Shown here: positions 13,743-25,464 of the stretch, piece after piece
Position numbering within the stretch: the first letter of the stretch is position 1
Layout of the letters: the number at the start of each line of letters is the position of its first letter
IMG/VR virus record: IMGVR_UViG_3300034146_000024
Location: 1 to 25,464 of that record
DNA from: a virus
Length of the DNA: 25,464 bases
Reading direction: 5' to 3' (one strand)
Translations under genes and position numbers: made by a program
Notes under the pieces: generated by a model
Told to the model about the DNA's origin: nothing
Database searches by the model: none
The model's input: only the letters and a program-made list of their open reading frames with translations

Positions 13743-14156
13743 CTAGCTTGCCTTCCTGATATGCCGGCCGGTCCTAAAGGCGACCGCCCAGCTGAGAGTG
13801 GTTCCGTTGACGGACAGGAGGCGGCCGGACACCGCCTCGCACGCGCGCGAGCAGTCGGGATGAATCCAGCCGACCAGCACTTCGAGGATGGCTCGCTCCT
13901 CCTCGTGCAGGTCGTCGGACACCTGCTTCTCGTTGCGGGCGGTGCCCTCAAGGAGGGAGACGACGAGGAACGTCTCGGTCTGGTTCTGGTCGTGCGCTCC
14001 GACGAGACTGTTGCCGCCGGCCGACCATCCTTCGGGAATGACGAAGCGCTGCGGGAGCCGCCCCGGCTGCGCCTGCAGCCCGGCCAGCTCGAGCGCGCCG
14101 TAGACGCGCTCCAGGCCTGCCTTCTTCAGCCGCTCGACGATCGGCGCGATCCTCAT
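13743..14156 (-). CDS. Tail terminator protein
   Basis: This 137-aa protein follows the gpG-like gene with an ATGA overlap (14153-14156). It begins MRIAPIVERLKKAGLERVYG and carries GAHDQNQTETFLVVSLLEGT and VGWIHPDCSRACEAVSGRLL, ending with TLSWAVAFRTG. This matches my memory of the phage tail terminator family of alphaproteobacterial prophages, lambda gpU-like in role. It is expected to form a ring that stops tube growth and joins the head. Its place just before the tube genes supports this. Confidence 0.7.
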   Translation of the reverse strand: MRIAPIVERLKKAGLERVYGALELAGLQAQPGRLPQRFVIPEGWSAGGNSLVGAHDQNQTETFLVVSLLEGTARNEKQVSDDLHEEERAILEVLVGWIHPDCSRACEAVSGRLLSVNGTTLSWAVAFRTGRHIRKAS

Positions 14157-14662
14157 GCCGCGGCCCCTCCGCCGAATGCGCCCCGCAGGTGGCGGATCAG
14201 GATTCCCGCGATTTCCTGCGGATCGTCCGCCTCGAAGCCGAGATACGGCCGGGCAGGGATGAGAACCTTGGCGAGGATGCGTCCGCCGAAGCTGAGCGCC
14301 TTCTTCACCCGCGGGACGATGGTCCCGCCGAACTGGTGGATCTTCGCATAGATGGCGGCGCCGCCGGACCGCTCCGGGCCAGCCGCGGCGAAGTCTGCGC
14401 CCCAGTCCGGCCGGATCGAATTCCTGAGGTCGCCACGCATCGTCAGCGTCTGCCCGCCCTCGCTGCGGGCGCGCTCGGAGGGCTTCCAGGGCTTGCCGCC
14501 GGGGCCGGTCTCCGTCTCGAAGCGCAGGCTGGTCTGCGTCGCGAGGAAGCTGGCGATCTCCTTCATCGCCGGCGTCAGGTCCGCGCCCGCGGCGACGCCG
14601 CGCGCCAGCGCCTCCGAGACGTTCTCCTCGAGCGCGATGTTGAGGGTGAGCCCGTCCGACAT
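14153..14662 (-). CDS. Virion morphogenesis protein (Mu gpG-like, Phage_tail_S family)
   Basis: This 169-aa protein starts at ATG 14662, coupled by TGATG to the DUF1320-like gene. Family landmarks are a helical N-terminus, SLRFETETGPGGKPWKPSER (the F-x-x-E/S-x-x-P-x-G-x-x-W pattern), LTMRGDLRNSIR, and AAIYAKIHQFGGTIVPRVKK with the typical A-x-I-H-Q-F-G-G, then IPARPYLGF near the end. In Mu, gpG acts in head-tail completion. Here it stands among connector genes rather than before the protease as in Mu, so the order is rearranged. Confidence 0.85.
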   Translation of the reverse strand: MSDGLTLNIALEENVSEALARGVAAGADLTPAMKEIASFLATQTSLRFETETGPGGKPWKPSERARSEGGQTLTMRGDLRNSIRPDWGADFAAAGPERSGGAAIYAKIHQFGGTIVPRVKKALSFGGRILAKVLIPARPYLGFEADDPQEIAGILIRHLRGAFGGGAAA

Positions 14663-15378
14663 CAGTAGTCCGGGATGCCGGAGGGATATTGGCGACTGCC
14701 GCCGCTGATCAGGATCGGCGAGGCGCTCGGCGCCTCGGCGACCGGCGCCAGGGCGGGCAGGGGCAGCTGGCCCTTGCCGATCTGCTCTAGGATCCTCAGC
14801 CCCGCCTTGGCGGCCTCGGCGACGCCTTCCGGGGCGCCGCGGGGATAGAGCCGGCCGCGGGCCATGTCGCCGATCGCGACCTTGACGATCTCGGGGACGG
14901 TGGCGAGCGGCAGAGCGAAGCGGGCGCCGACATGGACCTCCGCCACCGCCTGGACAGCGGAGAGGGCGCTCACCAGCAGGGTGCGGTCGATCCGGCCGGA
15001 GCCGTCGTCGGTCATCCTCACGACCTCCTCCAGGCCGTGCCTGGCGACGAACTCGCCGATGCTGAGCCAGGGGGCACCGCCGTCCGGCATGACCCACGTG
15101 GCCTCGACGACCGCAACCTCCAGCTCGCCCTCGCGGATCTCGCCGGCGGCGTCCTCGACGCGGGCAGTGACCAGGTAGCGCTCGCCGTCGGTGCCGCCGG
15201 CCATGTCGATGAACAGCATTCCGGCCGTGAGGGAGCCGGCGACCGTGAGCGCGGCGCTGCCCTCGACCAGTGCTCGCCCGGCGGCCGAGACCTCCTCGAT
15301 CGCGACGATCGCGGCGGCGCCGGCGATGGGCAGCTCGCGCTTCAGCGCTTCTGCAGGCTGCTTGACGAGGATCTGCAT
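14662..15378 (-). CDS. Mu gp36-like protein (DUF1320) with an extra N-terminal beta domain
   Basis: In this 238-aa protein residues 105-210 carry the DUF1320 pattern: WLSIGEFVARHGLEEVVRMT, then IDRTLLVSALSAVQAVAEVH, and VPEIVKVAIGDMARGRLYPR. It is likely a head-tail joining factor. Residues 1-95 form an extra beta-rich domain (VEGSAALTVAGSLTAGMLFI) not present in Mu gp36, so the protein is longer than the family. ATG 15378 begins MQILVKQPAEALKREL; the open frame upstream is Arg-rich. The junction with the next gene is TGATG. Confidence 0.75.
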   Translation of the reverse strand: MQILVKQPAEALKRELPIAGAAAIVAIEEVSAAGRALVEGSAALTVAGSLTAGMLFIDMAGGTDGERYLVTARVEDAAGEIREGELEVAVVEATWVMPDGGAPWLSIGEFVARHGLEEVVRMTDDGSGRIDRTLLVSALSAVQAVAEVHVGARFALPLATVPEIVKVAIGDMARGRLYPRGAPEGVAEAAKAGLRILEQIGKGQLPLPALAPVAEAPSASPILISGGSRQYPSGIPDY

Positions 15379-15380
15379 CG

Positions 15381-15671
15381 TCAGTTCACCAGCTCGGCAA
15401 CGACGCCGGCGGCGCCGACGAGGACGGCCGCGGCGAACAGGCCGATGCTGACCCCCTCCTCGAACTTGAGGATGGGCCAGTCGGTGGGCACCAGCTCGCA
15501 GCGCCACGCGCCCGTCGCGAGCAGTGCCAGGAGGAGGGGAAGCGCGACGGTCACCGGCGCAGCCTTGCGCGGCGGTGTCGGCGACGGGCGCGTCGGCTCA
15601 TGTGAAGCCGGTTCGGGCGGAGGCGGCGCCGGTTCGGACGGCGGCGAGAGCGCCGTCCCGCCCCGCCCCAT
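15381..15671 (-). CDS. Small two-TM membrane protein, perhaps the second half of a frameshifted gene
   Basis: These 96 codons from ATG 15671 give a Pro-rich N-terminus (PPSEPAPPPPEPASHEPTRP), then two membrane spans (VTVALPLLLALLATGAW and VSIGLFAAAVLVGAAGVVAE). No ribosome site stands before 15671. The preceding 80 bases look coding only in the frame of the 15754 start, one base off. So either this gene is translated by -1 shifting from 15754, or a base has been lost or gained. Its function is unknown. It ends 2 nt before the next gene start. Confidence 0.5.
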   Translation of the reverse strand: MGRGGTALSPPSEPAPPPPEPASHEPTRPSPTPPRKAAPVTVALPLLLALLATGAWRCELVPTDWPILKFEEGVSIGLFAAAVLVGAAGVVAELVN

Positions 15672-15754
15672 TCGCCGGCGGTCGGCAGCAGCTCGACCTC
15701 CGGTATCGGTGCGGTGAAAGTCGCAGCGGCCAGGGCGAAGACGTGGCCCCACAT
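15551..15754 (-). CDS. Short ORF coupled to the previous gene, likely 5' part of a frameshifted gene
   Basis: ATG 15754 shares a base with the upstream stop (TGATG), the operon's usual coupling. The first 30 residues look like protein (MWGHVFALAAATFTAPIPEV, then ELLPTAGEWGG). After about 15670 the frame turns into an Arg-rich string, while the -1 frame becomes the Pro-rich and membrane-spanning sequence that ends at 15381. This points to one gene of about 125 codons crossing frames in the G-rich stretch near 15660-15672. I see no canonical slippery heptamer there. Confidence 0.4.
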   Translation of the reverse strand: MWGHVFALAAATFTAPIPEVELLPTAGEWGGAGRRSRRRPNRRRLRPNRLHMSRRARRRHRRARLRR

Positions 15755-16065
15755 CACGCAGCAGCCTTCACCCGGTGCGCTTCGATCGCCTCGCGAAGCT
15801 TCGCCTCGTCGTTGATCAGGCCGTAGCGCGAGACCTTTTCCGCCTTGGCCGTCGCCTTCAGCTCCTGGAGGTTCTGCTCGGCGAGCGGCTTAGGCTCGGA
15901 AGGCGGATCCGCCGCCGCGACCTTCTTCGCGACACCCGGCTTGAGCGCGCCCAGCGCGACGAGGGCATCACCCTCCTTCGCGTCCAGCTCTACGGTCTCG
16001 CCGGGCGGGACCGGCTTAGGGCCGCCGTTCCTGAGCGGCGTCACGACCTCATAGGATTTCTTCAT
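15754..16065 (-). CDS. Small head-region protein with a C-terminal SAP/HeH-like motif
   Basis: This 103-aa protein starts at ATG 16065 with GGAGA about 8 nt upstream. The N-terminal 45 residues (MKKSYEVVTPLRNGGPKPVP, then PGETVELDAKEGDALVALGA) form a small beta domain ending in a helix, seen in many phage proteins next to the capsid gene. The C-terminal 35 residues (NLQELKATAKAEKVSRYGLI) look like a helix-loop-helix of the SAP/HeH/Rho-N type, as in Mu gp35-like proteins. It is likely a minor head or connector component. It is the first gene after the capsid hairpin. Confidence 0.6.
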   Translation of the reverse strand: MKKSYEVVTPLRNGGPKPVPPGETVELDAKEGDALVALGALKPGVAKKVAAADPPSEPKPLAEQNLQELKATAKAEKVSRYGLINDEAKLREAIEAHRVKAAA

Positions 16066-16096
16066 GTCGGTCTCTCCCCAACGGGGTCAGGGACTA

Positions 16097-16131
16097 CCGG
16101 GCGGGGGCGGGGACCAACCCTCCCCGCCCGG
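16097..16131 (-). terminator. GC-rich hairpin after the major capsid gene
   Basis: CCGGGCGGGG (16097-16106) is perfectly complementary to CCCCGCCCGG (16122-16131), with a 15-nt loop that can pair further. It lies in the 90-bp gap between the capsid stop and the next start. There is no U-run, so it is more likely an RNA-stabilising or attenuating element than a full terminator. Confidence 0.5.
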
Positions 16132-16155
16132 CTTCCAGGACGCTCGGAACGGTGC

Positions 16156-17091
16156 CTAGACCGCGCCCTGGAACAGGAAGCCCGCGTCGGGGCCGACCAG
16201 CTCCGGCGACCATTCGTCGAAGACGTCGTTCAGCCAGCTCGCATAGTCGTCGTTGAACCGCGCCGGCTTGACGAACGGATGGCCGTTGAGGCGGTAGGTG
16301 TAGCCGAAGGCCGGGACCCGCATCCCCGCCTGGCCCTTGGCAGGAACATAGGCCAGGATCGCGTCGCCGCCCCAGACATCGACGGATTCGCCGGCGTCGT
16401 CGTCATAGATGGCATCGCCAACCAGCACCTGCGGGACATCGAAGAACTGCGCCAGCATGGTGTCGGTGATCACCGGCGAGGCTTCCGCCTTGGTGGCAAA
16501 GCGGCCGATGACGCGCGGATGCACCTTGAGCTTCGCAGCCACCGTGGCGCCGATCGAGAGCGTGTTCGGCCGGCGGCCGGTGCGCTTGCGGATGACTTCC
16601 TTGGCGTCGCTCACCTGCTCGTCGGGCTTCGAGTCTCCGTTCGACCACTTGTCGGCGCCGGCAAGAGCCGCCTTGTTGGTGTTGGCGTAAGTCGCCGCGT
16701 TCCGGGCGGACTCCGCCTGGCTGATCTCGCGGTCGAGCTGGACCACGTTCAGGACGGTGTTCACGTTCTCGGTGAGCAGATCGATCCCCGGGACCGCCGC
16801 AGCCTCTTCGACATGCTCGATCGGGGTGGTCGCGCCGAGCGCCCGCTGGATCAGGGCAACGGCCTTGCCCTCATATCCGACCTGGATGCGAGCGATGCCG
16901 GCGCCCGGCGCGCGGATGATCTTGTAGCGGCGGAACGACTCCCGGCCGAACTCGATGCGCTTCGCCGCCCGGGTGGGCATGTTGACGATCGGCATCAGCA
17001 GGTCGCCGATGAAGCCGGCCTGCGTGTAGCCGCGGCTGTGGTTGGTGAGGATCGGGTCGATCACCCGGGCCTGCCTGGCATTCATGTCCAT
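16156..17091 (-). CDS. Major capsid protein
   Basis: This 311-aa protein has the length and position of an HK97-fold head subunit: after the protease/scaffold and decoration genes, and isolated by hairpin-bearing gaps. It begins MDMNARQARVIDPILTNHSR, has FIGDLLMPIVNMPTRAAKRI, a central acidic helical part with KEVIRKRTGRRPNTLSIGAT, then ILAYVPAKGQAGMRVPAFGY with YTYRLNGHPF, and ends in WSPELVGPDAGFLFQGAV. The A-K-E-x-I-R-x-x-T-G-x-x-P-N-T and M-P-x-F-G-Y-x-Y landmarks are typical of this capsid group. ATG 17091 has GAGGGA about 10 nt upstream; ATG 17085 is an alternative. Whether it belongs to the Mu gpT or another capsid family I cannot say. Confidence 0.85.
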   Translation of the reverse strand: MDMNARQARVIDPILTNHSRGYTQAGFIGDLLMPIVNMPTRAAKRIEFGRESFRRYKIIRAPGAGIARIQVGYEGKAVALIQRALGATTPIEHVEEAAAVPGIDLLTENVNTVLNVVQLDREISQAESARNAATYANTNKAALAGADKWSNGDSKPDEQVSDAKEVIRKRTGRRPNTLSIGATVAAKLKVHPRVIGRFATKAEASPVITDTMLAQFFDVPQVLVGDAIYDDDAGESVDVWGGDAILAYVPAKGQAGMRVPAFGYTYRLNGHPFVKPARFNDDYASWLNDVFDEWSPELVGPDAGFLFQGAV

Positions 17092-17111
17092 CTTGGAAGT
17101 CCCTCGCTCTT

Positions 17112-17173
17112 CAGTTCACGGAGCGGTCGCCGCAGCGGCCGCTTCGGGAACTGGCGGGGCCGGAGCCCCACCA
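17112..17173 (-). repeat. Intergenic hairpin element, copy between decoration and capsid genes
   Basis: This is a near-copy of 17552-17619. It contains GGGGC (17156-17160) pairing with GCCCC (17165-17169) around a CGGA loop, extended by TGG/CCA, and AGCGG (17122-17126) pairing with CCGCT (17139-17143). Shared blocks are CAGTTC, GCGGTCGC, CGGCCGC, TCGGGAAC and GGCGGGGC. It precedes the capsid ribosome site on the leftward transcript. Confidence 0.55.
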
Positions 17174-17187
17174 GCAGCCCGCCTCAA

Positions 17188-17538
17188 TCAGAGGGCGAGC
17201 AGGATCTCGATCACCGCGCCCGCCGCGGCTGCCGGCTGGAGGGCGTAGCCGGCGATCTCGCCGTCGCCGCCGTGCGGAATGGCGGCGCCGGTCGCATCGG
17301 TCTTGAGCGGGGTGAGGCCCTTCGCGCCGAGCGGGATCGCCGCACCCGTCACCACGCGGGTGGTGCCGATCACATCCACGGCGAAAGCCGCGCCGGCGGC
17401 GTCGGCCGCGTAGGCGGAAACGCCCATGGGCTTCGCCCCCGCGGCGTCACACTGCGAGCCGTCGAAATCGACGAAACGGTTGGCCGCGACGGCGGCGGCG
17501 GCGACGCTGGTCAACGTCAGGATCACGGTCTTCTGCAT
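17188..17538 (-). CDS. Capsid decoration protein (DUF2190-like)
   Basis: This 116-aa protein lies directly before the major capsid gene. It begins MQKTVILTLTSVAAAAVAAN and continues RFVDFDGSQCDAAGAKPMGV with SAYAADAAGAAFAVDVIGT. That is the A-x-R-F-V...A-x-G-x-x-x-x-G-V-x-x...G pattern of DUF2190 cement proteins that stabilise the expanded head. ATG 17538 has GGAGG 8 nt upstream; an ATG 6 nt earlier is too close to that site. The open frame further upstream encodes PVPEAAVRDRLANWEE through the hairpin element and is probably untranslated. Low-complexity Ala/Gly content fits the family. Confidence 0.75.
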   Translation of the reverse strand: MQKTVILTLTSVAAAAVAANRFVDFDGSQCDAAGAKPMGVSAYAADAAGAAFAVDVIGTTRVVTGAAIPLGAKGLTPLKTDATGAAIPHGGDGEIAGYALQPAAAAGAVIEILLAL

Positions 17539-17551
17539 CGGCATTTCCTCC

Positions 17552-17619
17552 CAGTTCGCGAGGCGGTCGCGCACGGCCGCCTCGGGAACCGGGCGGGGCG
17601 CACGCGGCGCCCCGCCAGG
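17552..17619 (-). repeat. Intergenic hairpin element, copy between protease/scaffold and decoration genes
   Basis: This is the partner of 17112-17173. GGCGGGGCGC (17592-17601) pairs perfectly with GCGCCCCGCC (17607-17616) around a 5-nt loop, and GAGGCGG (17560-17566) pairs with CCGCCTC (17576-17582). Both copies keep two stems although the bases differ, which suggests selection for structure. Confidence 0.6.
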
Positions 17620-17625
17620 CACTCT

Positions 17626-18129
17626 TCAGCCTCCCGCCTGCTTGACGGCGTCGATGTAGGAGAGCCCAGGCGTGGCACCCTGCAGCTCCAGGGCCCGCCC
17701 ATGGATCTGGAGCGCCTTGGGATCGACCACGTAACCCTGCGGCGCCGCGAAGCTGGCGCCCGCCTTGTCCGCGTTCGGATCGGCAGGGGCTTCCTCGCCG
17801 AACGAGATCGTCGCCCTCGCGCCGTCGAAGAGCTTGCGGAAGGCGGCGTTGGGGGTGAGCTGCTGGGCGCCCTCGCCCTCGCCAAAGGCGACGGTCGCGG
17901 TCGCGTCCAGCTCGTCGAGCAGGCCGATGACGATCGGCTTCATCGCCGGCGGGAGCTTGGTCGCCGTGACCAGGCTCTCCGCGAAGGACACGTTCGAGGC
18001 GTGGAGGGCGGCCGTGGCCGCCTGCTCGCGGGTGGCGGCGTTGGTCTCGCGGTCGGCGATGTCCGCCTCGCGGCGGGCGAGGGCCGCTTCGCGCTCGGCG
18101 AAGGCGGCGTCGTTCGAGGTGTCGGTCAT
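17626..18129 (-). CDS. Scaffold protein from an internal start inside the protease gene (Mu gpZ-like)
   Basis: ATG 18129, in frame with the protease, is preceded by AGGAG with a 6-nt gap, a better ribosome site than that of the full gene. The 167-aa product begins MTDTSNDAAFAEREAALARR and is a helical coiled coil, then ends with AFRKLFDGARATISFGE and a linker. Mu gpI/gpZ and lambda C/Nu3 use the same nested scheme. Expected role: inner core around which the capsid assembles. Confidence 0.75.
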   Translation of the reverse strand: MTDTSNDAAFAEREAALARREADIADRETNAATREQAATAALHASNVSFAESLVTATKLPPAMKPIVIGLLDELDATATVAFGEGEGAQQLTPNAAFRKLFDGARATISFGEEAPADPNADKAGASFAAPQGYVVDPKALQIHGRALELQGATPGLSYIDAVKQAGG

Positions 18130-18594
18130 GCTGGTCTCCTGGGGTTGTTCGATCGTCACGTCGCCGTCGTCGCCCTCGCCGAAGGCGACGGTGCCGAGGC
18201 CCTTCACGGCCGGCGCCGCGGCGCCGAGGAAGCCGACGTGCTTGAGGTAGAAGTGGCCGGGCTTCGGGTTGCCGCGCCCGTTGGGGAAGTAGAAGCGGCC
18301 CGAGACCTTCCGGAACCGGCCCTGGCGGACGGCCTCGGCGAAGGCGGGCTCGAGCTTTTCGGGGTCAGGCTCCGCGCAGAGATGGCCGTCCTCGAACGTC
18401 ACCCGCTTGATCCAGCCATAGGCCGGGTGGTCGAGCGCGGGGTGGCCGATCACCATCGGCGCCGGATCGCTCACCGGGTCGTAGGCCTCCGCCGCGTTGC
18501 GCAGCGCCTCCTCGGTGAAGGAGACCTTCGTCCCCTCCACCGACGTGAACTCGCCGGGCGGCATGATTTTGATCAGCGGGAGCGTCCGTTCCAT
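17626..18594 (-). CDS. Prohead protease with C-terminal scaffold (Mu gpI-like)
   Basis: This 322-aa protein is the Mu-like protease. It matures the prohead by cutting the scaffold. The N-terminal 150 residues carry LPLIKIMPPGEFTSVEGTKV, PAPMVIGHPALDHPAYGWIK, the KVSGRFYFP strand with a conserved-type serine, and HFYLKHVGFLGAAAPAVKGL, whose end matches the family's L-x-x-V-x-x-L-G-x-x-x-P-A-V-x-G-L. From residue 156 on it is an Ala/Glu/Arg coiled coil, the scaffold half. I chose ATG 18594 because the upstream frame is Arg-rich; its ribosome site is weak. Terminase and portal genes are not found before it. Confidence 0.85.
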   Translation of the reverse strand: MERTLPLIKIMPPGEFTSVEGTKVSFTEEALRNAAEAYDPVSDPAPMVIGHPALDHPAYGWIKRVTFEDGHLCAEPDPEKLEPAFAEAVRQGRFRKVSGRFYFPNGRGNPKPGHFYLKHVGFLGAAAPAVKGLGTVAFGEGDDGDVTIEQPQETSMTDTSNDAAFAEREAALARREADIADRETNAATREQAATAALHASNVSFAESLVTATKLPPAMKPIVIGLLDELDATATVAFGEGEGAQQLTPNAAFRKLFDGARATISFGEEAPADPNADKAGASFAAPQGYVVDPKALQIHGRALELQGATPGLSYIDAVKQAGG

Positions 18595-18884
18595 GACGCT
18601 CTGGTAGGGGGAGAGGAGCCGCCGGACGGGCGTCCGTTGACGGACGGGGTCCCGGCGCGGTTCCCGGATCCATTTGACGCGGATCGGCGGCGAACGCAAC
18701 CGGGAGGCCGAGGGCGGAATGAAAATGCCGCTGGGAGCCCCTGTGCAGCCCGCACAGGCCTCTCGAGCCGCCTCGCGGCGGCAACGCCCGCCGAATCCGC
18801 CCGATGGCCGCCTGAGGCCGCTACGAGGCCATTCGCTACAACAGGGTCAGGATTGCTCCGGGGCGCCGGAGCTACCCGGCTCCG
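18595..18884 (-). promoter_or_regulatory. Hairpin-rich leader before the head operon
   Basis: The 290-bp gap between the accessory cassette and the protease gene holds no convincing gene. It contains several perfect inverted repeats: GCTCCGG/CCGGAGC (18855-18872), GCCGCC/GGCGGC (18767-18782), CCTGTGC/GCACAGG (18740-18758), and a three-arm set CGGACG, CGTCCG, CGGACG (18623-18646) in which the middle arm can pair with either side. I could not find a clear sigma-70 promoter on the - strand. The hairpin at 18855 may end the accessory transcript. Confidence 0.4.
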
Positions 18885-19382
18885 CTAGATTTTCACGGAA
18901 CGTTGCGCGGGCTCCCGCCGGTACGCCTCAACATCCTCGCCGTCCCTGTTCTGCACCAAGGCCCAGCGACGGCACACCAGATCGGGCGTCGCATCCCCCG
19001 GAGGGATGGTGCCCACCGATATTCGGCGCCCGCGCGAGAGGCCGGGCTGATCGGGAGAACTGACGAAGAGGATCCGGTCCCGCGAAAACAGCAGGTCGCC
19101 CGGGTCGAAAATATTGCCCCCCGCCTCGATGCTCCGGCCGTCCAGGACGAGCCGCACCTCTCCGAGAAAGGCGGCGCTGTTGATCCCGGGATCGGTCTTG
19201 AGGCTCCAGCTGTGGAACTGAAGGCCGCCTTCACCGAGAACGATCGCCCATTTGTCCTCATCTCCGACGACCCAGATCAGCGGGTTCAGGTCGGGTGCTG
19301 CATAGAGGCCTTGCGCCGAATTTCCGCTTAACCACCCCAAGCGGACCTCAGCCGCGTCCAGCCAGATCGGCTCCTCCTCCAT
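18885..19382 (-). CDS. Unknown protein, last gene of the accessory cassette
   Basis: This 165-aa protein is not one I recognise. ATG 19382 has a perfect AGGAGG 5 nt upstream and lies 8 nt after the stop of the two-TM gene, so the two are probably one transcript. It is mixed alpha/beta with many Trp and Gly residues (PLIWVVGDEDKWAIVLGEGG; NIFDPGDLLFSRDRILFVSS). It has no signal peptide or membrane span. It might be a soluble partner, regulator or sensor of the two-TM protein. This is inferred from position alone. Confidence 0.6.
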   Translation of the reverse strand: MEEEPIWLDAAEVRLGWLSGNSAQGLYAAPDLNPLIWVVGDEDKWAIVLGEGGLQFHSWSLKTDPGINSAAFLGEVRLVLDGRSIEAGGNIFDPGDLLFSRDRILFVSSPDQPGLSRGRRISVGTIPPGDATPDLVCRRWALVQNRDGEDVEAYRREPAQRSVKI

Positions 19383-19390
19383 GTATCCTC

Positions 19391-19924
19391 CTACTGCGTA
19401 AGCTTTCTGATCCGCTCGTCCTCTGCCTCCATCGCACGCTCGAAGCTGAAAAGCTGGATCAGCGCCCGGTGGTGCGACCTGAGTTTATACGGGATCGCGT
19501 CGCGTTCGAGCGCGCGCGCCGTCCTGTTGAAGCAGTCGGCCTTCAAGGCGGCGAGTTCGAGCACGCACTCGGTCTCGATCTCGTGCTGGGTCTGAACCCA
19601 AGCCGCAATCTGGTGCGGCGTGGGCTCGTCGCTCGACCGAACCTCAGCCAGAACGGCCGACCACCGCTTCAGCCATTGGCGATGTCGGGCGGCGCATGCC
19701 TCGGGCTTGTAGACGAGCTGGATCAACCCGATGGCCGTCACGACGAGGCCCGCTCCGGCGGCGTACCCATTCACGTCGGAAGCGACCGTGATGAACGTTC
19801 CCCCGCCGGCCGCAAGGAGCACGAGCGTCAGGAACAGGTCCAGCTGCTCGAGAAAGGCCGCGCGCCGGCGGTGGTAGCGGACGGACGCCTCAGCCCGGAA
19901 AAGCATTTCGGCACGATCGGCCAT
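19391..19924 (-). CDS. SLATT-like two-TM membrane protein
   Basis: This 177-aa protein has a basic, aromatic N-terminus (RYHRRRAAFLEQLDLFLTLV) leading into TM1 (about 29-49), a short loop, TM2 (about 54-73, AGLVVTAIGLIQLVYKPEAC), then a soluble helical part starting ARHRQWLKRWSAVLAEV. This matches the layout of SLATT domains (SMODS- and SLOG-associated 2TM effectors), proposed pore-formers in bacterial conflict systems. The domain match is from pattern memory, so it is tentative. It follows two tiny genes and precedes an unknown gene, all leftward and closely spaced. A plain phage membrane protein is the alternative. Confidence 0.5.
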   Translation of the reverse strand: MADRAEMLFRAEASVRYHRRRAAFLEQLDLFLTLVLLAAGGGTFITVASDVNGYAAGAGLVVTAIGLIQLVYKPEACAARHRQWLKRWSAVLAEVRSSDEPTPHQIAAWVQTQHEIETECVLELAALKADCFNRTARALERDAIPYKLRSHHRALIQLFSFERAMEAEDERIRKLTQ

Positions 19925-19930
19925 GGTCCG

Positions 19931-20086
19931 CTACTTGCCGCCCTTTTTCTCGGGAGGGATGGGGCGGTCGAACGACACGAACGTGCCGTTGCCGGGGTTC
20001 TTTCTCCCCAGTTCGGAGCTGCCAATGTCCTTCTTTTCGATCGGCTGGCGCTCGCCGCGATCACGCTTGTCCCTGTCGTCGCTCAT
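19931..20086 (-). CDS. 51-aa basic protein sharing the SFDRPIPP motif
   Basis: ATG 20086 follows GAGGA with an 8-nt gap and the frame ends at TAG 19931-19933. The protein starts MSDDRDKRDRGERQPIEKKD, is very hydrophilic, and ends with GTFVSFDRPIPPEKKGGK. This C-terminus is nearly the same as that of the gene just upstream (20098-20271), so the pair is paralogous. It starts 11 nt after that gene's stop and ends 6 nt before the start of the two-TM gene. I know no family for it. Conservation only at the C-terminus suggests a binding tail. Confidence 0.6.
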   Translation of the reverse strand: MSDDRDKRDRGERQPIEKKDIGSSELGRKNPGNGTFVSFDRPIPPEKKGGK

Positions 20087-20097
20087 TTGCTTTGTCC

Positions 20098-20271
20098 TCA
20101 CTTTTTCTTGTCGGGCGGGATCGGCCGGTCGAACGAGACGGAGGTGAACTTGCCGCTCTTAACTTCTCGGGTAAGGCTGTGCTTGTACGCCGTTTCCCGC
20201 GTGGAGGCCGTCGCCTTCCGCGCGATAACTTTCCTCGCGGATTTCGGCTTTTTCGGCTTGTCCTCGGCCAT
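20098..20271 (-). CDS. 57-aa basic protein sharing the SFDRPIPP motif
   Basis: ATG 20271 has AGGAGG 4 nt upstream. An earlier in-frame start (20298) lacks a site. The protein starts MAEDKPKKPKSARKVIARKA, has a central helix-like part (STRETAYKHSLTREVKSG) and ends KFTSVSFDRPIPPDKKK. About a third of its residues are Lys or Arg. It is first in the leftward cassette of four genes and diverges from the lipoprotein gene at 20439. The function is unknown. A small regulator, antitoxin-like partner or nucleic-acid binder would fit its size and charge. Confidence 0.6.
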   Translation of the reverse strand: MAEDKPKKPKSARKVIARKATASTRETAYKHSLTREVKSGKFTSVSFDRPIPPDKKK

Positions 20272-20438
20272 CGATCCTCCTGCCTCTCTTTGCAGCATCC
20301 GCCGCCATGGGTCGAGAGCCCGCCGGTCGCCGTTCTATCGCTTCAACGCTGCACAGGGAGGGGCAGCAACGGCTCCAAAACGGAGCGACTGCGCGGAAGC
20401 TTCTGGATCATGAGGTGGCGCGTGCTAGGCAGGCGCCC

Positions 20439-20843
20439 ATGAGGATGTTCTCCATAGCTGCGGTGGCTGCGTCGGTGACGCTCGGGTGCAGTTCGCCTCC
20501 GCCGCTGGAGCCGGCCCTGGCCGAACGGGCGAAGGCGGCGATCGCCGCGGAGGAGCCCGTCCCCGGCACCGTCAGCTTCCGGACGCTCTGGCTCGCCGAG
20601 CTGGGGGAGGCGAATGGGCTGGTCTGCGGGCGCATCGATGCGCCGGCCGTGCTGGAGAAGCCGGAGCTCAGGGTCATCTACGAGGACAAGGGTGCGTACG
20701 CCGTCGTCGAAAAGCATGAGCTGTGGGTCGGCGGCGGAGCGATGGGCCCGGCGCTGCTCGAGCAGAACCGCCAGGCGTTCAACAGGCTCTGGGAGACGGC
20801 CTGCAAACCGACCGACCCGGCGCGGTGGGCGCTATTCGGTTAG
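20439..20843 (+). CDS. Putative lipoprotein, accessory
   Basis: This 134-aa protein starts MRMFSIAAVAASVTLGCSSP, a short lipoprotein signal with Cys17 as acylation site; the lipobox TLGC is acceptable but not ideal. The mature part has an alpha-helical stretch (EPALAERAKAAIAAEEPVPG), a beta region (FRTLWLAELGEANGLVCGRI) and ends with RLWETACKPTDPARWALFG. It resembles small lipoproteins common in alphaproteobacterial genomes and prophages, but I cannot name it. It lies alone on the + strand between leftward blocks. The ribosome site before ATG 20439 is weak (AGGC). A surface or lysogenic-conversion role is possible. Confidence 0.6.
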   Translation: MRMFSIAAVAASVTLGCSSPPPLEPALAERAKAAIAAEEPVPGTVSFRTLWLAELGEANGLVCGRIDAPAVLEKPELRVIYEDKGAYAVVEKHELWVGGGAMGPALLEQNRQAFNRLWETACKPTDPARWALFG

Positions 20844-20857
20844 TTGCCGAGGCGACC

Positions 20858-22048
20858 CTAACGAGTCGCTGCCTTCCCGATCAGCGCCCCTAGAGACAGC
20901 TCGGCCGGTCCGTCCTCTTTGACGATGCCGTCGGTCGTCTGCCTGAAGAGGGCACCGAGGATGATCTGCCGGTCCGCTTCTTCGGCCGCGCGCTCCCTGG
21001 TCAGCGCTAGATAAGTGGTGGTCATCACCGCGCGCTCGCCGGCATCGTGGCGCAAGTGCCGCTCGCTGAGGTAGATCTTCGTTAGGAGGCGACCAATCCA
21101 GAAGGTCAGAGCTGCCATCGAGAGAAGGCCGCCGGATATGATCACGTAGACGGTGCTGGGAACGGCCGTCGCATTGAGCAAAATTGCGGCGGCGCCGAGA
21201 AAAGCGGTGAGAAGCAGCGCCAAGGCCGCCGGGAAGAATAGATAGAGCAGTCGCCTGGCCGTTTGCTCCGCCTTCGAATGCTCCGCCTCCTTGCCGCGCC
21301 AATATTCGACCGGCGCCTGAAGCCGCATCTGCTCCTTGAATGCCTGGTCCGTCGCGCGGATTTCCGCGACAGCATCGGTCGCGTCCGCCGTCCAAACCCC
21401 TTGGGCGTTTGTCCAGGCGTCGCGCCGCATCCGCAGCGCCCTTATCGACAGGCGGAATCCGCGCTTCAGCAGGCGCTTGAACTCAGTGCTCTGCTCCTCC
21501 CGGATCTTCTCGATCCGGTCAGCCGCCGAAATTTGCGCAGATCGATAGTTGGCCCGTTCTTTGGACAAGCGTGTTGCCAGAGCCGCAGGCTCGACAAGCC
21601 CCGGTACGATAAACAGGATCGCACCCCTCACTTGCTCCGGGTTTCCGTTGCTGAGGTTCACCGCGCCGAGGTGGTAGGCGTAGGCAAAGGCTGCGGCTGC
21701 CTCGCCGGCAGCGTCTTTTATGTCGAGTATGAGTGCGCCGACCTCTGAGGTGGACAGCCGAAGGCTCCCCGTCGAGCGAGAGAAATTCTCTTCGATCATG
21801 CTCCGCATGACATCCATGCTGTGGCCGGCGGTCCGGTAGGTCTCGATGTGACCTTCAATGCTGTCGAAGGCATTGACTACGGACGAAATCGACCCCGGGT
21901 TGTACGTTCTTTGCGTGTCCCGCAGCCATTCCCAATAGGCCCCTTCTGATCGGACCCACTTCCTTAGATGCTCCCAAGTCCGGAACTCCGTCGGCCCCGA
22001 AGGATCCCCGACCTGCACCAGAAGCTTCTTCTCTTTGTCGTCTGCCAC
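20858..22048 (-). CDS. DUF6161-like membrane protein, accessory
   Basis: This 396-aa protein has a soluble N-terminal region (1-240, helical), the stretch MRLQAPVEYWRGKEAEHSKA, two membrane spans (about 267-292 and 298-322) and a conserved-looking C-terminus (LSERHLRHDAGERAVMTTTY, then LALTRERAAEEADRQIILGA and LFRQTTDGIVKEDGPAE). The H-L-x-x-D-A-x-E-R, T-Y-L-A-L-T, A-L-F-R and D-G-I-V-K-x-D-G series fits DUF6161 as I remember it. The function is unknown. GTG 22048 is the likely start because the longer frame upstream is Arg-rich; its ribosome site is poor. It converges with the lipoprotein gene, leaving a 14-bp gap. A cargo or defence gene is a fair guess. Confidence 0.6.
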   Translation of the reverse strand: MADDKEKKLLVQVGDPSGPTEFRTWEHLRKWVRSEGAYWEWLRDTQRTYNPGSISSVVNAFDSIEGHIETYRTAGHSMDVMRSMIEENFSRSTGSLRLSTSEVGALILDIKDAAGEAAAAFAYAYHLGAVNLSNGNPEQVRGAILFIVPGLVEPAALATRLSKERANYRSAQISAADRIEKIREEQSTEFKRLLKRGFRLSIRALRMRRDAWTNAQGVWTADATDAVAEIRATDQAFKEQMRLQAPVEYWRGKEAEHSKAEQTARRLLYLFFPAALALLLTAFLGAAAILLNATAVPSTVYVIISGGLLSMAALTFWIGRLLTKIYLSERHLRHDAGERAVMTTTYLALTRERAAEEADRQIILGALFRQTTDGIVKEDGPAELSLGALIGKAATR

Positions 22049-22191
22049 TGCTGGTCCCCGCGTTGACCTCCAGCATCGGCGACGCAGGCGGCTTGCACAA
22101 GCTCCGATCCCCAGCGGTGTGGGGTGCTTCCGAGCCATTTCGGACCTAATGCCGCTCGCGCTCCTGTCCGCGGGCGCTACTTGTCGAAACC

Positions 22192-22467
22192 GTGGAAAGA
22201 GCGCGGCTCCGGCACCTCGTTCGTGGAATGGCTGCGGCGCGGCGGCGGCGCATCCCTGCCTATGTCCTTCGCAATGGCGTGGTCGTCGCCGCGATCGAAC
22301 CGCCCGACTTCCGGCTGCGGTTCTACCCGGACGGGAGAAAAATTCCACGACCGGGCGAGTCGCTCTCTTCCCCAAAGCCGGAATGGCCGATTAGCACAAA
22401 GCAGGAACACCGCACCGATTCGCCGGAGCAGGGACGTGCCGCGACCGAAGATGAAGATGGGCTTTGA
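22192..22467 (+). CDS. Small hypothetical protein
   Basis: This frame of up to 91 aa contains a protein-like stretch (IPAYVLRNGVVVAAIEPPDF, then RLRFYPDGRKIPRPGE), followed by a Glu/Pro-rich, probably disordered end. The start may be GTG 22192 or ATG 22228; neither has a strong ribosome site. It overlaps the next + gene by 17 nt, suggesting coupling. It diverges from the DUF6161-like gene across 143 bp, where promoters for both could lie, though I saw no clear -35/-10 pair. No family recognised. Confidence 0.45.
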   Translation: MERARLRHLVRGMAAARRRRIPAYVLRNGVVVAAIEPPDFRLRFYPDGRKIPRPGESLSSPKPEWPISTKQEHRTDSPEQGRAATEDEDGL

Positions 22468-22732
22468 GCCGAAGCAGGCGCCGAGGCGTGCCGCCCCGCC
22501 GATGACACGCGCCCACCGGGAGCATCTGGAGCGCAAGGGGGCGCTGGCGCCGTATCGCTATCGCGTCATGATCTTCGATCGGGCGGTGACGCCTTGGCGC
22601 TCGGACGAGCAGGAGACGCTTCGCGACGCGGTCCGCGGCGGCCACGGCACCGTCTGCGAGCAGACCGGCATCCTCTTCATGACCGTTCCGGCCTGGATCC
22701 AGTGGGAGAAGCTGGAGCGGTCACCTGCCTAA
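22451..22732 (+). CDS. Small hypothetical protein
   Basis: This 93-aa protein begins MKMGFEPKQAPRRAAPPMTR and has YRYRVMIFDRAVTPWRSDEQ and GHGTVCEQTGILFMTVPAWI, ending QWEKLERSPA. A basic N-terminus is followed by a mixed alpha/beta core. I do not recognise it. ATG 22451 or 22457 is the start. Its last 56 bases overlap, tail to tail, the leftward membrane protein gene. The longer open frame upstream (from 22124) is not protein-like. It may be a small regulator or a leftover accessory gene. Confidence 0.5.
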   Translation: MKMGFEPKQAPRRAAPPMTRAHREHLERKGALAPYRYRVMIFDRAVTPWRSDEQETLRDAVRGGHGTVCEQTGILFMTVPAWIQWEKLERSPA

Positions 22733-23342
22733 ACCGTCGTACGAGATGCAGCTTTGAGGCGTCCACCATTCTGACTCCTTCGAACGTCCACAGCGCTAGC
22801 CGCTGCGGGTCCTGAGCAATGGGAACGCCGACGAAAACGTCCTTTTCGGTGCGGTAGACGAAGCAGTGGTCATAGCACGTCTCGACCAGCGCCCGTTCGA
22901 TCGACTTCGCCTTCCATGTGCCTGTTATCTTGCCGCCGACGCCCACGGCGAACAGAAGGGTAAGGAGGGCATAGAACGGGGCAATGAAGCGCACGAAGCG
23001 GTCGTACCGAAGTAATCCGGGCGGCAATTCGCTAGGAGGCCGGCCTCTAAGAGCCTGGTGCCGGGCGTACGCGACCACGCCGACCAGAACGGTCGGAAGA
23101 ACAAGGGCTATAAGCAAAGGTTCGAAGCCCCGCGCCAGCGTCGAGTGGAACGGCTCGGTGATCGCGTCGCCCGTGAGGCCATAGCGGGTGAACACATGTT
23201 GCCGCTCGACCCATGCCGCGAAATACAACAGGGCGCTGATTGTTAGCGCCGCAGGAGCTGCGGCAGCGAGAAGGGTGCCGGCGGTGAATGCCGCCAGAGC
23301 CCCGGGCCGCGGCGGTTCTTGACGCTCCTGCTCACCGCTCAT
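22677..23342 (-). CDS. Three-TM membrane protein coupled to the repressor, possible superinfection exclusion
   Basis: This 221-aa protein has membrane spans at about 15-45, 74-93 and 116-136, separated by a loop with RQHVFTRYGLTGDAITEPFH. A soluble C-terminal domain (ALVETCYDHCFVYRTEKDVF and VGVPIAQDPQRLALWTFEGV) follows. Its ATG overlaps the repressor stop (ATGA, 23339-23342), so it is expected to be made in the lysogen whenever the repressor is. Genes in this place often give immunity or exclusion, but no known exclusion protein is recognised here. Confidence 0.6.
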   Translation of the reverse strand: MSGEQERQEPPRPGALAAFTAGTLLAAAAPAALTISALLYFAAWVERQHVFTRYGLTGDAITEPFHSTLARGFEPLLIALVLPTVLVGVVAYARHQALRGRPPSELPPGLLRYDRFVRFIAPFYALLTLLFAVGVGGKITGTWKAKSIERALVETCYDHCFVYRTEKDVFVGVPIAQDPQRLALWTFEGVRMVDASKLHLVRRFRQVTAPASPTGSRPERS

Positions 23343-24013
23343 GCCGCCACATGCACCTTACTGCTCCAGACGATGCGGCCGAGGATCTCCAGGTCCAGGC
23401 TCTCGTCCTGCCGGTCGAGGTCGATGGGCTGGTACGCGGGGTTGCTGCTGACGACCCGGATCGTCCGGCCCTGGAACTGGATCCGCTTCACCAGCAGCGC
23501 GTCGTCGAGGCGCAGGGCGTAGAGCCCGTCGCGCGGATCCCGCCGCGTCCGGTCGACCATCACCCAGTCGCCGTCGTGCAGATCCGGCACCATGCTGTCC
23601 CCCTGGACGCGGAGCAGCTCGAGCTGGTCGTCATGCCCGAATGACCGGCGCAGCCAGGCGCGCGGGAAAAGCCAGTCCGCCTGCCGCACCGCCCGCCCGG
23701 CCGCCTCGGTGCCGCCGCCTGCCGAGAGCGACGGCGTCAGCATGGGCAGGCTGACCAAATCCTCCTCCGCAGCCGGCGAGGGCGGGCCGTCGCGGCCGGT
23801 GAACAGCCAGTCCAGCGAGACGCCGAGGGCGGCGGCGATCTTCAGCCCGTTGTCGGCGGTGCGGATGCCGTCGCGGACATAGTCGCGAAGCGTGTTGTTC
23901 GGGACGCCGGACGCCTGGCTCAGCCAGGCGAGCCCCCGATCGCCCAGAGCGTCGAGAATTCGTGCGCCCACCGGATTTTCGGTTTTCGGGCGTTGACGGC
24001 CGCGGTCGGTCAC
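23339..24013 (-). CDS. Phage repressor, S24 peptidase family (LexA/CI-like)
   Basis: This 224-aa protein has an N-terminal helix-turn-helix (about 15-72: AWLSQASGVPNNTLRDYVRD, with IAAALGVSLDWLFTG) and a C-terminal S24 domain. Ser140 in RVQGDSMVPDLHDGDWVMVD and Lys176 in LLVKRIQ form the Ser-Lys dyad. Ala98-Gly99 is a candidate self-cleavage bond, so RecA-induced inactivation is possible. The start is GTG 24013, placed by the loss of protein-like sequence upstream; GGATAG is a weak ribosome site. It should hold the lysogenic state by binding the operators at 24019-24043 and near 24370, and so differs from the non-cleaved Mu c repressor. Confidence 0.88.
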   Translation of the reverse strand: MTDRGRQRPKTENPVGARILDALGDRGLAWLSQASGVPNNTLRDYVRDGIRTADNGLKIAAALGVSLDWLFTGRDGPPSPAAEEDLVSLPMLTPSLSAGGGTEAAGRAVRQADWLFPRAWLRRSFGHDDQLELLRVQGDSMVPDLHDGDWVMVDRTRRDPRDGLYALRLDDALLVKRIQFQGRTIRVVSSNPAYQPIDLDRQDESLDLEILGRIVWSSKVHVAA

Positions 24014-24021
24014 GCTATCCG
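23993..24021 (+). promoter_or_regulatory. Candidate early promoter (rightward)
   Basis: TTGACG (23993-23998) is followed after 17 bp by TATCCG (24016-24021). The -35 is good and the -10 is weak. Transcription would start near 24028 and run into the Ner-like gene and transposase. The -10 overlaps the operator dyad that begins at 24019, so repressor binding would block it. Confidence 0.45.
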
Positions 24022-24043
24022 AACTTTCGTAACGAGTTTTCGG
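24019..24043. promoter_or_regulatory. Operator dyad between repressor and early genes
   Basis: CCGAA (24019-24023) and TTCGG (24039-24043) form the outer arms, and TCGT-A-ACGA (24027-24035) the centre, giving a 25-bp imperfect palindrome just upstream of the repressor start. Part of it recurs at 24367-24387. TTTTCGG also occurs twice inside the repressor gene (23976-23989). It is the likely binding site of the repressor, the Ner-like protein or both. Confidence 0.55.
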
Positions 24044-24079
24044 ACTCTCGTGCTGAGGCCATAAGGACCGGAACCGACG

Positions 24080-24322
24080 ATGATCGTGGGGGGAATGCAC
24101 CCGGAGGATGTGAAGGCAGCGCTCCGCAAGCGGTTCCGCAGCGTCGCCGCCTTCGAACGGGCCCAAGGTCTGCCGGCGAAGTCGGTCAGCGAGATCTTCC
24201 GCGGACGTAAGAGCGCCCGGGTTTCCGGCGCCATCGAAGCTGCTCTCAACACGCCCCCCTCAAGTAGCAACGACGAAGTTTCGCACGGCGCGCCCCTCAT
24301 TACTGTCGGAGAGCGCGCGTGA
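24080..24322 (+). CDS. Ner-like DNA-binding regulator
   Basis: In this 80-aa protein the core MHPEDVKAALRKRFRSVAAF, followed by ERAQGLPAKSVSEIFRGRKS and ARVSGAIEAAL, matches the Ner/Nlp helix-turn-helix family (W/H-P-x-D-V/I-x-x-x-L-R-x-R). In Mu, Ner represses both the repressor and early promoters after induction. The start is ATG 24080 or ATG 24095; the second is where family proteins usually begin, but GGGGGGA sits very close to it. It is the first rightward early gene, 91 bp before the transposase. The last 25 residues are an unstructured tail. Confidence 0.75.
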   Translation: MIVGGMHPEDVKAALRKRFRSVAAFERAQGLPAKSVSEIFRGRKSARVSGAIEAALNTPPSSSNDEVSHGAPLITVGERA

Positions 24323-24366
24323 CCTCCGCTTACCAGAGGGCCTTGCAAGAGTCAGTCCCCGTAACT

Positions 24367-24398
24367 TGTCCGAAATCTCGGAACGGAACGTCGTTCCG
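24367..24398. promoter_or_regulatory. Second operator-like site before the transposase gene
   Basis: From 24367 the sequence repeats the first site: T-x-TCCGAA-x-T-x-TCG-x-AACG, 15 of 21 positions equal to 24017-24037. Next to it is a perfect palindrome CGGAACG-T-CGTTCCG (24384-24398). The site ends 15 bp before the transposase ATG. It may be an internal operator like those that also serve transposition in Mu. Confidence 0.5.
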
Positions 24399-24413
24399 GT
24401 ATCGGAGGCGGGG

Positions 24414-25464
24414 ATGACTGCGGACGGGGGGACACACTACAGCGCCGCTCAGCTGGCGCAGCTGACGCTGCCCGGCCTGCCGAAGAGCAAGCGCGGGATC
24501 CACATTGCCGCGGAGCGGGAGGGGTGGACCTTCGTCGAGCGACAGGGCCGCGGCGGCGGGCGCCTCTACGCCTTCGCCGACCTCCCCGAGCCCGCCCGCA
24601 AGGCGCTCGAGGAGAAGCGCGCCCGCCTCGTCCCGGCCAACCTCCGGCCGGTCGGCCGGCCCAAGGGTTCGGACTTCTTCAGCCGCCATCCCGACGTCGC
24701 CGACGCGGTGGAGGCGATCATCGCCGAGCGCCAGCTCGCCGCCCCCCGGATCCTCGAGCTGCTCGCGCAGCGGTTCGTCGCGCTTCCCTCCCGGCGGACC
24801 CTCGCCCGCTTCATCCTCAGCCTGGAGCGGCGCAAGCCGGCGCTCCTCGCGTCGGTCCGCGACCCCGACGCCTACAAGAGCCGCTACAAGCTCGCGCTGG
24901 GCCGCGCCGACGGCGCCGCCACCTACGCCCACCAGGTATGGGAGCTGGACACCACCAAGGTCGACGTCCTGACCAAGGGCGGCCGCAAGATGGTCTTCGG
25001 GGTGATCGACCGCTACTCGCGCCGCGCCCGCTTCATGGTCGGCGAGAGCGAGAGCGGCCAGGCCGTCCGCCGGCTCCTCGTCGAGACGATCCGCCTCTGG
25101 GGCGTGATGCCGGAGACGGTCGCGACCGACAACGGCTCCGGCTACATCAACAAGTCGATCGTCACCGCGCTCGAGACGCTGGGCATCAGGCACTGGCGGT
25201 GCCCGCCGGGCAGCCCCGAGAAGAAGCCCTTCGTCGAGCGCGTGTTCGGCACCTTCACCCGCGAGCGCGCCGAGCTGCTAGGCGGCTATGCCGGCCACAA
25301 CGTCGCCCAGGCCCAGCAGCTGAGGGGCAAGGCGAAGAAGGAAACCGGCCTCGCCGTCATCGTGCCGGAGCTGGACGCCGAGGAGCTTCAGCGGATCCTC
25401 GATGCCTGGGTGGACGGCGTCTACCACCACCGCGAGCATAGCGGCATCCGCACCACGCCGTTCA
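24414..25464 (+). CDS. MuA-type DDE transposase, 5' part (runs off the window)
   Basis: 350 codons are visible from ATG 24414 (GGAGG 6-10 nt upstream) to the window end, without a stop. Residues 8-55 (YSAAQLAQLTLPGLPKSKRG, then REGWTFVERQGRGGGRLYAF) are a Mu-type winged-helix DNA-binding domain that binds the phage ends or enhancer. Residues 175-300 are an RNase-H-like integrase core: Asp179 in WELDTTKVDV, Asp239 in VATDNGSGYI and Glu275 in SPEKKPFVERVFGTF. The last two are 35 residues apart, as in the classical DD35E type. The target-activator (MuB-like) gene and the rest of the early region would lie further right. Confidence 0.93.
   Translation, partial: MTADGGTHYSAAQLAQLTLPGLPKSKRGIHIAAEREGWTFVERQGRGGGRLYAFADLPEPARKALEEKRARLVPANLRPVGRPKGSDFFSRHPDVADAVEAIIAERQLAAPRILELLAQRFVALPSRRTLARFILSLERRKPALLASVRDPDAYKSRYKLALGRADGAATYAHQVWELDTTKVDVLTKGGRKMVFGVIDRYSRRARFMVGESESGQAVRRLLVETIRLWGVMPETVATDNGSGYINKSIVTALETLGIRHWRCPPGSPEKKPFVERVFGTFTRERAELLGGYAGHNVAQAQQLRGKAKKETGLAVIVPELDAEELQRILDAWVDGVYHHREHSGIRTTPF

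Follow-up and report, generated by a model that had tools for sequence, protein, structure and literature searches.

The stretch of DNA analysed here (the window, an IMG/VR record of 25,464 bases) is a fragment of the genome of a transposable (Mu-type) phage. Four leftward genes follow one another closely in it, and code for two mini-proteins, a protein of 177 residues and a protein of 165 residues (Table 1). The preliminary description had given these genes gaps of 6-11 bp, and they are indeed present with gaps of 11, 6 and 8 bases. It had also given a good ribosome site to each. Sites of the GGAGG or GAGG type do precede the genes for mini-protein 1, mini-protein 2 and the 165-residue protein, but the gene for the 177-residue protein has no clear one: the sequence before its ATG, GGCGGCAAGTAGCGGACC, holds no ribosome site worthy of the name. 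This gene starts 6 bases past the stop codon of mini-protein 2, and is probably translated by coupling to it. The third-position GC content is 0.79-0.85 across all four genes.

Table 1. Features of the cassette and of the adjoining accessory region (positions in the window)
Feature	Position	Strand	Remarks
Mini-protein 1	20098..20271	-	57 aa; net charge +11; tail VSFDRPIPPDKKK; clear GGAGG ribosome site
Mini-protein 2	19931..20086	-	51 aa; net charge +3; tail VSFDRPIPPEKKGGK; tail counterpart in L086
SLATT-type two-TM protein	19391..19924	-	177 aa; phrog_11791 family
165-aa protein, last gene of the cassette	18885..19382	-	no relatives found; module membership unsupported
Stretch between cassette and divergent lipoprotein-like gene	20272..20438	-	possible promoter site
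Lipoprotein-like gene	20439-20843	+	recognised from the sequence; no Pfam match
505-aa DUF6161 protein	20858-22375	-	matches DUF6161 and PADLOC AbiZ

Rightward from the cassette lie the lipoprotein-like gene, the DUF6161/AbiZ-like gene, a gene for a 221-residue protein with three hydrophobic segments, an S24 repressor gene (about 3 kb upstream of the cassette and on the same strand), an HTH gene that we take to be Ner-like and, at the right end of the window, the first part only of a Mu-type transposase gene. Leftward lie the genes for the head protease, the scaffold, the major head protein and the tail and, at the left extremity of the window, those for the endolysin and a spanin-like protein. 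Because an opposite-strand gene bounds it on one side and a spacing of 0.2-0.3 kb separates it from the head protease on the other (the start of the protease is not settled), the cassette looks like a unit of its own. Its promoter would sit in the stretch before mini-protein 1, where no match to the sigma-70 consensus was found; otherwise, the cassette would be read from further upstream.

The head protein is 45% identical to that of RR1-B and 44% identical to that of RcapMu. In those two phages, genes for a large terminase, a gp29-type portal and a MuF-like protein lie upstream of the protease; in the window, the accessory region occupies that place. None of the three was found among the window proteins scanned, or by tblastn with the proteins of RR1-B and YPCBV-1. 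An assembly slip is an unlikely source of this gene order, since a related phage (IMGVR_UViG_3300041964_000103, hereafter L086) has the same overall arrangement and repeats the succession of transposase, repressor, accessory genes, protease and head protein. In both phages (window, 13743-25463; L086, 1952-10689), the repressor is followed by genes for the head, the tail and lysis that all point leftward, and the transposase gene faces the opposite direction.

The two accessory regions also have smaller features in common. The lipoprotein-like gene recurs in L086 (4799-5227, minus strand; 50% identity over 121 residues), and in both phages it lies on the strand opposite the repressor. A short stretch of an uncharacterised small protein, of the form FDRxxxPWR ... 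TVPAWIQ, is common to the window (about 22556-22702, plus strand) and L086 (4069-4215, minus strand), with 41% identity over 49 residues. The DUF6161/AbiZ-like protein is a second membrane-anchored candidate defence protein close to the cassette; a limited search of the literature found no mention of DUF6161.

SLATT proteins (SMODS and SLOG-associating 2TM effectors) are, as their name and the literature have it, genomically linked with nucleotide-signal (SMODS, SLOG) genes, and are predicted to act in bacterial immunity by forming pores; the name reportedly goes back to a 2015 paper. The 177-residue protein matched no Pfam family. Over residues 4-163, it matches phrog_11791 (E 1.3e-17). Its own signals with SLATT_4 and SLATT_1 are weak (E 0.03, far below the curated cut-offs), and the assignment comes from the family as a whole: of its 26 members, 16 reach E 0.1 or better with NCBIfam SLATT_4 (best 6.9e-8), and 9 do so with NCBIfam SLATT_1 (best 5.6e-5). 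With the Pfam version of SLATT_1, just 2 of 14 members gave any match, neither of them better than E 0.06. A profile built from the other 18 sequences recovers the window protein at 105 bits.

The structure predicted from a 26-row alignment (pLDDT 94.6) has a long helix, a hairpin and a second long helix (helices at residues 4-40, 42-50, 54-72, 74-97, 103-119, 125-138, 150-154 and 162-176), and the sequence is hydrophobic in two places, around residues 30 and 53. When the model was compared with BFVD using Foldseek, no match reached E 0.001 and the top match was an unnamed Mimivirus protein; the four best named matches were all SLATT proteins, from large DNA viruses, with probabilities of 0.99-1.00 but E values of 0.02-0.06. 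A search of the PDB returned common helical bundles (Z up to 8.1), and the absence of SLATT proteins from among them is uninformative. The preliminary description had seen a SLATT-like two-TM protein here, and the family profile matches and the modelled layout bear this out, with the best named viral structural matches, short of E 0.001, pointing the same way: judged by profile and predicted layout, the protein is a divergent member of the SLATT type. Both its ends would be cytosolic, given the basic flanks and the short loop. No nucleotide-signal (SMODS, SLOG) family of Pfam was matched by 14 window proteins and 10 proteins of other loci, and no reverse transcriptase was found among the proteins scanned from the window, which is a fragment. 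A comparison of 18600-22700 with Rfam also gave nothing at E 0.1, and the idea of an RNA in place of the mini-proteins was dropped on that account.

The preliminary description had treated the four genes as one system. The 165-residue protein does not fit such a system, as we found no relative of it in phages, plasmids, viral contigs, the comparison loci or L086. Its single-sequence model is unusable (pLDDT 31.5). On present evidence, this protein appears to be a local neighbour and not a member of the module.

That the two mini-proteins are tiny, basic and alike at their ends, as first described, is confirmed by their tails (VSFDRPIPPDKK and VSFDRPIPPEKK). Over the 12 codons of the common tail, 7 differ, with six synonymous changes and one conservative replacement (pS 0.71, pN 0.036, Fisher p 9.5e-5, with rounded site counts). 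The N-terminal parts, or heads, have no visible likeness to each other. A second case of twins is found at locus L076, where two mini-proteins precede one SLATT gene and have PAPVRPD in common; 5 of these 7 codons differ, all synonymously. Between the mini-protein 2 tail and its L086 counterpart (VSFDRPTPAEREKK), compared over nine codons, pS is 0.85 and pN 0.13. Among the related mini-proteins of L061, L062 and L063, pS is 0.65-0.84 and pN 0.32-0.39 over the whole alignment, and pS is 0.67-0.96 and pN 0.11-0.20 over the last 22 columns. Since the changes in the twin tails are mostly synonymous, the tails appear to evolve as protein; on these codon comparisons, the mini-proteins are proteins whose tail is under protein-level selection. 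The window mini-proteins are charged and have no hydrophobic stretch, and should be cytosolic. What is conserved in the tail is its general character and not its exact sequence. The exact tail motif has no match in viral contigs, and three exact matches in genome contigs were set aside as chance, as their frames are unlike the mini-proteins and no family match (phrog_11791, A3) occurs in those genomes.

Relatives of the 177-residue protein were reached only through profile searches. Neither tblastn in phages and plasmids nor a single-protein scan of viral contigs found anything with the window protein, and a phrog_11791 search of 6 genomes or records gave no match. Profiles detected relatives in Pseudomonas phage TC7, in a Klebsiella plasmid (six near-identical records matched, of which one was kept), in two Rhizobiaceae plasmids and in bacterial genomes. 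The draws of genomes overlapped, and relatives came from 4 of 385 with phrog_11791 (two of them weak), from 11 of 398 (one of them weak), from 4 of 48 (no new ones), from 7 of 369, from 9 of 297 (one of them weak), from 5 of 385 (two of them weak) and from 5 of 106 (one of them weak). Weak matches (L012, L013, L032, L057, L090, L091 and L095; E 1e-5 to 7.5e-4) were excluded from the count below, and the upstream DNA of L012, L013, L032 and L057 contains no similar mini-protein gene. A partial match, covering 39% of the query, was seen in Rhizobium jaguaris (L096).

Short basic ORFs that end in proline and lysine or arginine recur before the SLATT genes of this family (SDTFPPPPPKDKDKGEKK, PVRLPEPPPPPPKPPEKKR and AEHKPPPPPPDKK are examples). 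We counted as such any ORF with at least 5 Pro and at least 2 Lys/Arg in its last 20 residues and a stop codon within -110 to +50 of the start of the SLATT model, a rule that was fixed after inspection of the 31 loci. By this rule, an ORF of this kind is found at 22 of the 31 loci; among 318 other genes taken from these loci as controls, 10 have one (Fisher p 2.5e-20). Two good loci found later both conform; for these, a fixed offset placed the SLATT start slightly differently, and with ORF ends lying 6 and 14 bases upstream of that point the outcome is unaffected. The count covers only loci of the window-type SLATT family. The nine loci that fall short include the window itself, with three prolines in the last 20 residues. 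Of the others, L019 has four prolines, L075 two prolines, L069 one arginine only, and L066 a tail that lies 128 bases upstream; L068 has a Pro-rich but acidic ORF, and at L077 the candidate is just the terminal part of a long frame. Something similar, left uncounted, is therefore present at most of these nine loci; the exceptions are L074, where the gene is truncated, and L079, where nothing was seen. The net charge is positive in all 22 mini-proteins cut from the DNA, and also in mini-protein 1.

We also compared the divergence of the mini-proteins with that of the adjoining SLATT proteins. With 22 loci, the correlation was stronger for the last 25 residues (r 0.45, p 2e-4) than for the whole mini-protein (r 0.21, p 0.03). 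Without L062 and L063, it fell to r 0.19 (p 0.03) and r 0.008 (p 0.45), respectively (n = 20), so that co-variation of tail and SLATT protein is clear only when near-duplicates are included. The preliminary description had suggested a search for the gene set elsewhere and had considered the mini-proteins as possible regulators or antitoxins. The pairing of mini-protein and SLATT gene does recur, and the co-occurrence and the selection on the tail both speak for partnership. That it turns up in phages far apart, on plasmids and in the genomes of bacteria suggests a membrane module of two parts that has gone largely unnoticed and that probably serves in phage-bacterium conflicts.

The surroundings of the pair vary. 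In phage TC7, a repressor gene lies directly upstream of the mini-protein and SLATT genes; the Pro-rich mini-protein ORF between repressor and SLATT gene (L018, 2805-2963) is unannotated in at least this public record. An S24 repressor gene is found one gene upstream of the pair in G656, and an HTH gene upstream of it in G619 (E 0.004, below the cut-off). On a Rhizobium plasmid, the pair comes directly after a caspase gene and one that is RyR-like (E 1e-4, below the cut-off). A different arrangement is seen in plasmid pAtS4b of Allorhizobium ampelinum S4 (L021, 2013-2942), in which a paralogue of ribosomal protein S2 (E 2.3e-97) carries the Pro-rich tail as a C-terminal extension directly before the SLATT gene. 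The last 130 residues of this paralogue contain no ATG, GTG or TTG codon. At L059, the tail ends a TPR frame, in which an internal start is possible; the SLATT protein of this locus shares 54% identity with the one at L060, where a similar tail belongs to a mini-protein of its own.

In L086, the SLATT protein is 45% identical to that of the window, and a trypsin-like domain (E 7.7e-8) follows it. As deposited, a single open frame of 462 codons runs from the SLATT protein into this domain, which would represent a fusion, or two adjoining genes if the contig has an indel there. The contig seems to contain errors, because the mini-protein, protease and head genes are interrupted by frameshifts. 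The same accessory region holds a gene (5199-6311, plus strand) for a protein whose N-terminal region is hydrophobic and which matches GAF weakly (E 3e-4, below the cut-off). The mini-protein and SLATT genes of L086 are encoded on the other strand from its head genes, and this argues for a movable module and not for a part of the head machinery.

We propose, with a probability of roughly 0.45, that the mini-proteins and the 177-residue protein form a prophage-borne membrane effector module, in which small cytosolic partners control the effector through their tail. The SLATT-type protein, with two predicted membrane helices and both ends presumably in the cytoplasm, would form a channel or a leaky complex once triggered. 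The Pro-rich basic C-terminal tail of the mini-protein would contact it and hold or arm it; the tight gene order and the conserved tail suggest that it is the SLATT protein that the tail meets. The differing N-terminal parts would have trigger-specific functions, and in the window two such partners would serve one SLATT protein. On infection of the lysogen by another phage, a partner could be lost or changed, the SLATT protein would open, and its putative toxicity would stop the infected cell, or the incoming phage would be blocked. The SLATT assignment, the recurrent pairing, the selection on the tail and the positive net charge argue for an effector module, as do the phage repressors close by and the caspase, RyR-like and trypsin-like neighbours. 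Counted against it are the post hoc nature of the rule and its 9 misses in 31 loci, the dependence of the co-variation on near-duplicates, and the lack of a nucleotide-signal gene adjoining the SLATT gene in the proteins scanned. A more specific, and doubtful, version is that SLATT proteins of this class are switched by short adaptors, the conserved tail acting as a plug of the channel and the exchangeable head as a sensor. The stand-alone heads, the twin heads of the window and L076, and the tails on larger proteins (the S2 paralogue and, possibly, the TPR frame of L059) would then be versions of one plug, and one channel could listen to several triggers.

The same genes might instead exclude superinfecting phages without killing the cell, with the SLATT protein altering the inner membrane so that entry of phage DNA is barred and the mini-proteins serving as assembly partners. 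Phage repressors lie close by at several loci, and the lipoprotein-like gene and the protein with three hydrophobic segments are near the cassette in the window, as in immunity regions. We nevertheless regard this as rather unlikely: the pair also occurs on plasmids and in bacterial genomes (some of which copies may be prophages), and the caspase or trypsin-like neighbours of some copies fit killing better. An unlikely alternative, in our estimate, is a toxin-antitoxin pair that stabilises prophage or plasmid, the mini-protein being the antitoxin and the SLATT protein the membrane toxin. It would explain a tight operon in which a small basic protein precedes a membrane protein, and the presence of the pair on two conjugative plasmids and one phage; it would be strange, however, for one toxin to have two antitoxins, and the cassette proteins match no toxin or antitoxin family in Pfam, PADLOC or NCBIfam (mini-protein 1 gave weak, unrelated matches only).

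Whether the product of the small ORFs matters at all bears on a further possibility, that they are leader peptides in which poly-proline pauses the ribosome before the stop codon and thereby governs translation of the SLATT gene. The tail is the extreme end of the ORF and immediately precedes the SLATT start, PPP is present in 18 of 22 mini-proteins, and the SLATT gene of the window is the one that has no clear ribosome site. Yet PPP is missing from both window mini-proteins and from those of L019, L065 and L076, and the residues that flank the prolines are maintained by synonymous change. The tail of the S2 paralogue, with no start codon near it, is also hard to read as a leader. Weakened by the synonymous evolution of the tail and by the S2 fusion, this explanation is quite improbable. 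A last possibility is that these are structural, lysis or packaging genes of the phage, a holin for instance; a structural or packaging role had been named at the outset as an outcome that would speak against an accessory cassette. Two membrane segments and, in the window, the same direction as the head genes would suit it, but the orientation in L086, the relatives on plasmids and in bacterial genomes, and the position of the endolysin and spanin-like genes do not; it is largely refuted, and we consider it highly improbable.

None of the described systems that we compared with the module combines the same parts. The window protein matches phrog_11791, but that library gives no function for the family, and describes single proteins and no upstream mini-protein. 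AbiZ/DUF6161 is represented by a neighbouring gene of the window, separated from the cassette by the lipoprotein-like gene on the opposite strand; a common origin of DUF6161 and the window SLATT family was considered and rejected, as the two have no profile similarity. A limited search of the literature, including the accessible portions of PMC7159879, PMC12632851, PMC12483538 and PMC9122126, found no joint description of a SLATT protein and a Pro-rich mini-protein.

SLATT proteins have been predicted to be signal-responsive, pore-forming effectors, and the systems outlined in the accessible part of that work include caspase and trypsin effectors (PMC7159879). Like these effectors, the window family has a layout of helix, two TM segments and long helix, along with SLATT profile matches in most members; SLATT proteins are the best named structural matches of the window protein, at E values short of 0.001, and trypsin and caspase neighbours occur in two copies of the pair. 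It differs from them in its pairing with a short Pro-rich protein, with no nucleotide-signal enzyme or reverse transcriptase seen adjoining. As far as the available text of these sources goes, some SLATT genes are tied to systems other than nucleotide-signal ones, so that the nucleotide-signal link does not strictly define the superfamily. In DRT10, a SLATT protein is required for defence and its partner may neutralise it until infection (PMC12632851, in part), an idea from which we derive the logic of a protein partner for the window SLATT protein. DRT10 and DRT9 (PMC12632851, PMC12483538) thus resemble the proposed module in that a SLATT protein is proposed to act as a membrane effector that an operon partner either restrains or triggers. 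The partner proposed there, as far as the accessible parts of the two papers describe it, is cDNA from a reverse transcriptase and an ncRNA, neither of which was found in the parts of the window searched. The controls proposed for SLATT proteins in this literature, so far as accessible, are nucleotide signals or cDNA, whereas the pairing with a mini-protein would be a purely protein-based switch, and one small enough to dissect, with a tail of about 12 residues set against a membrane protein of 177.
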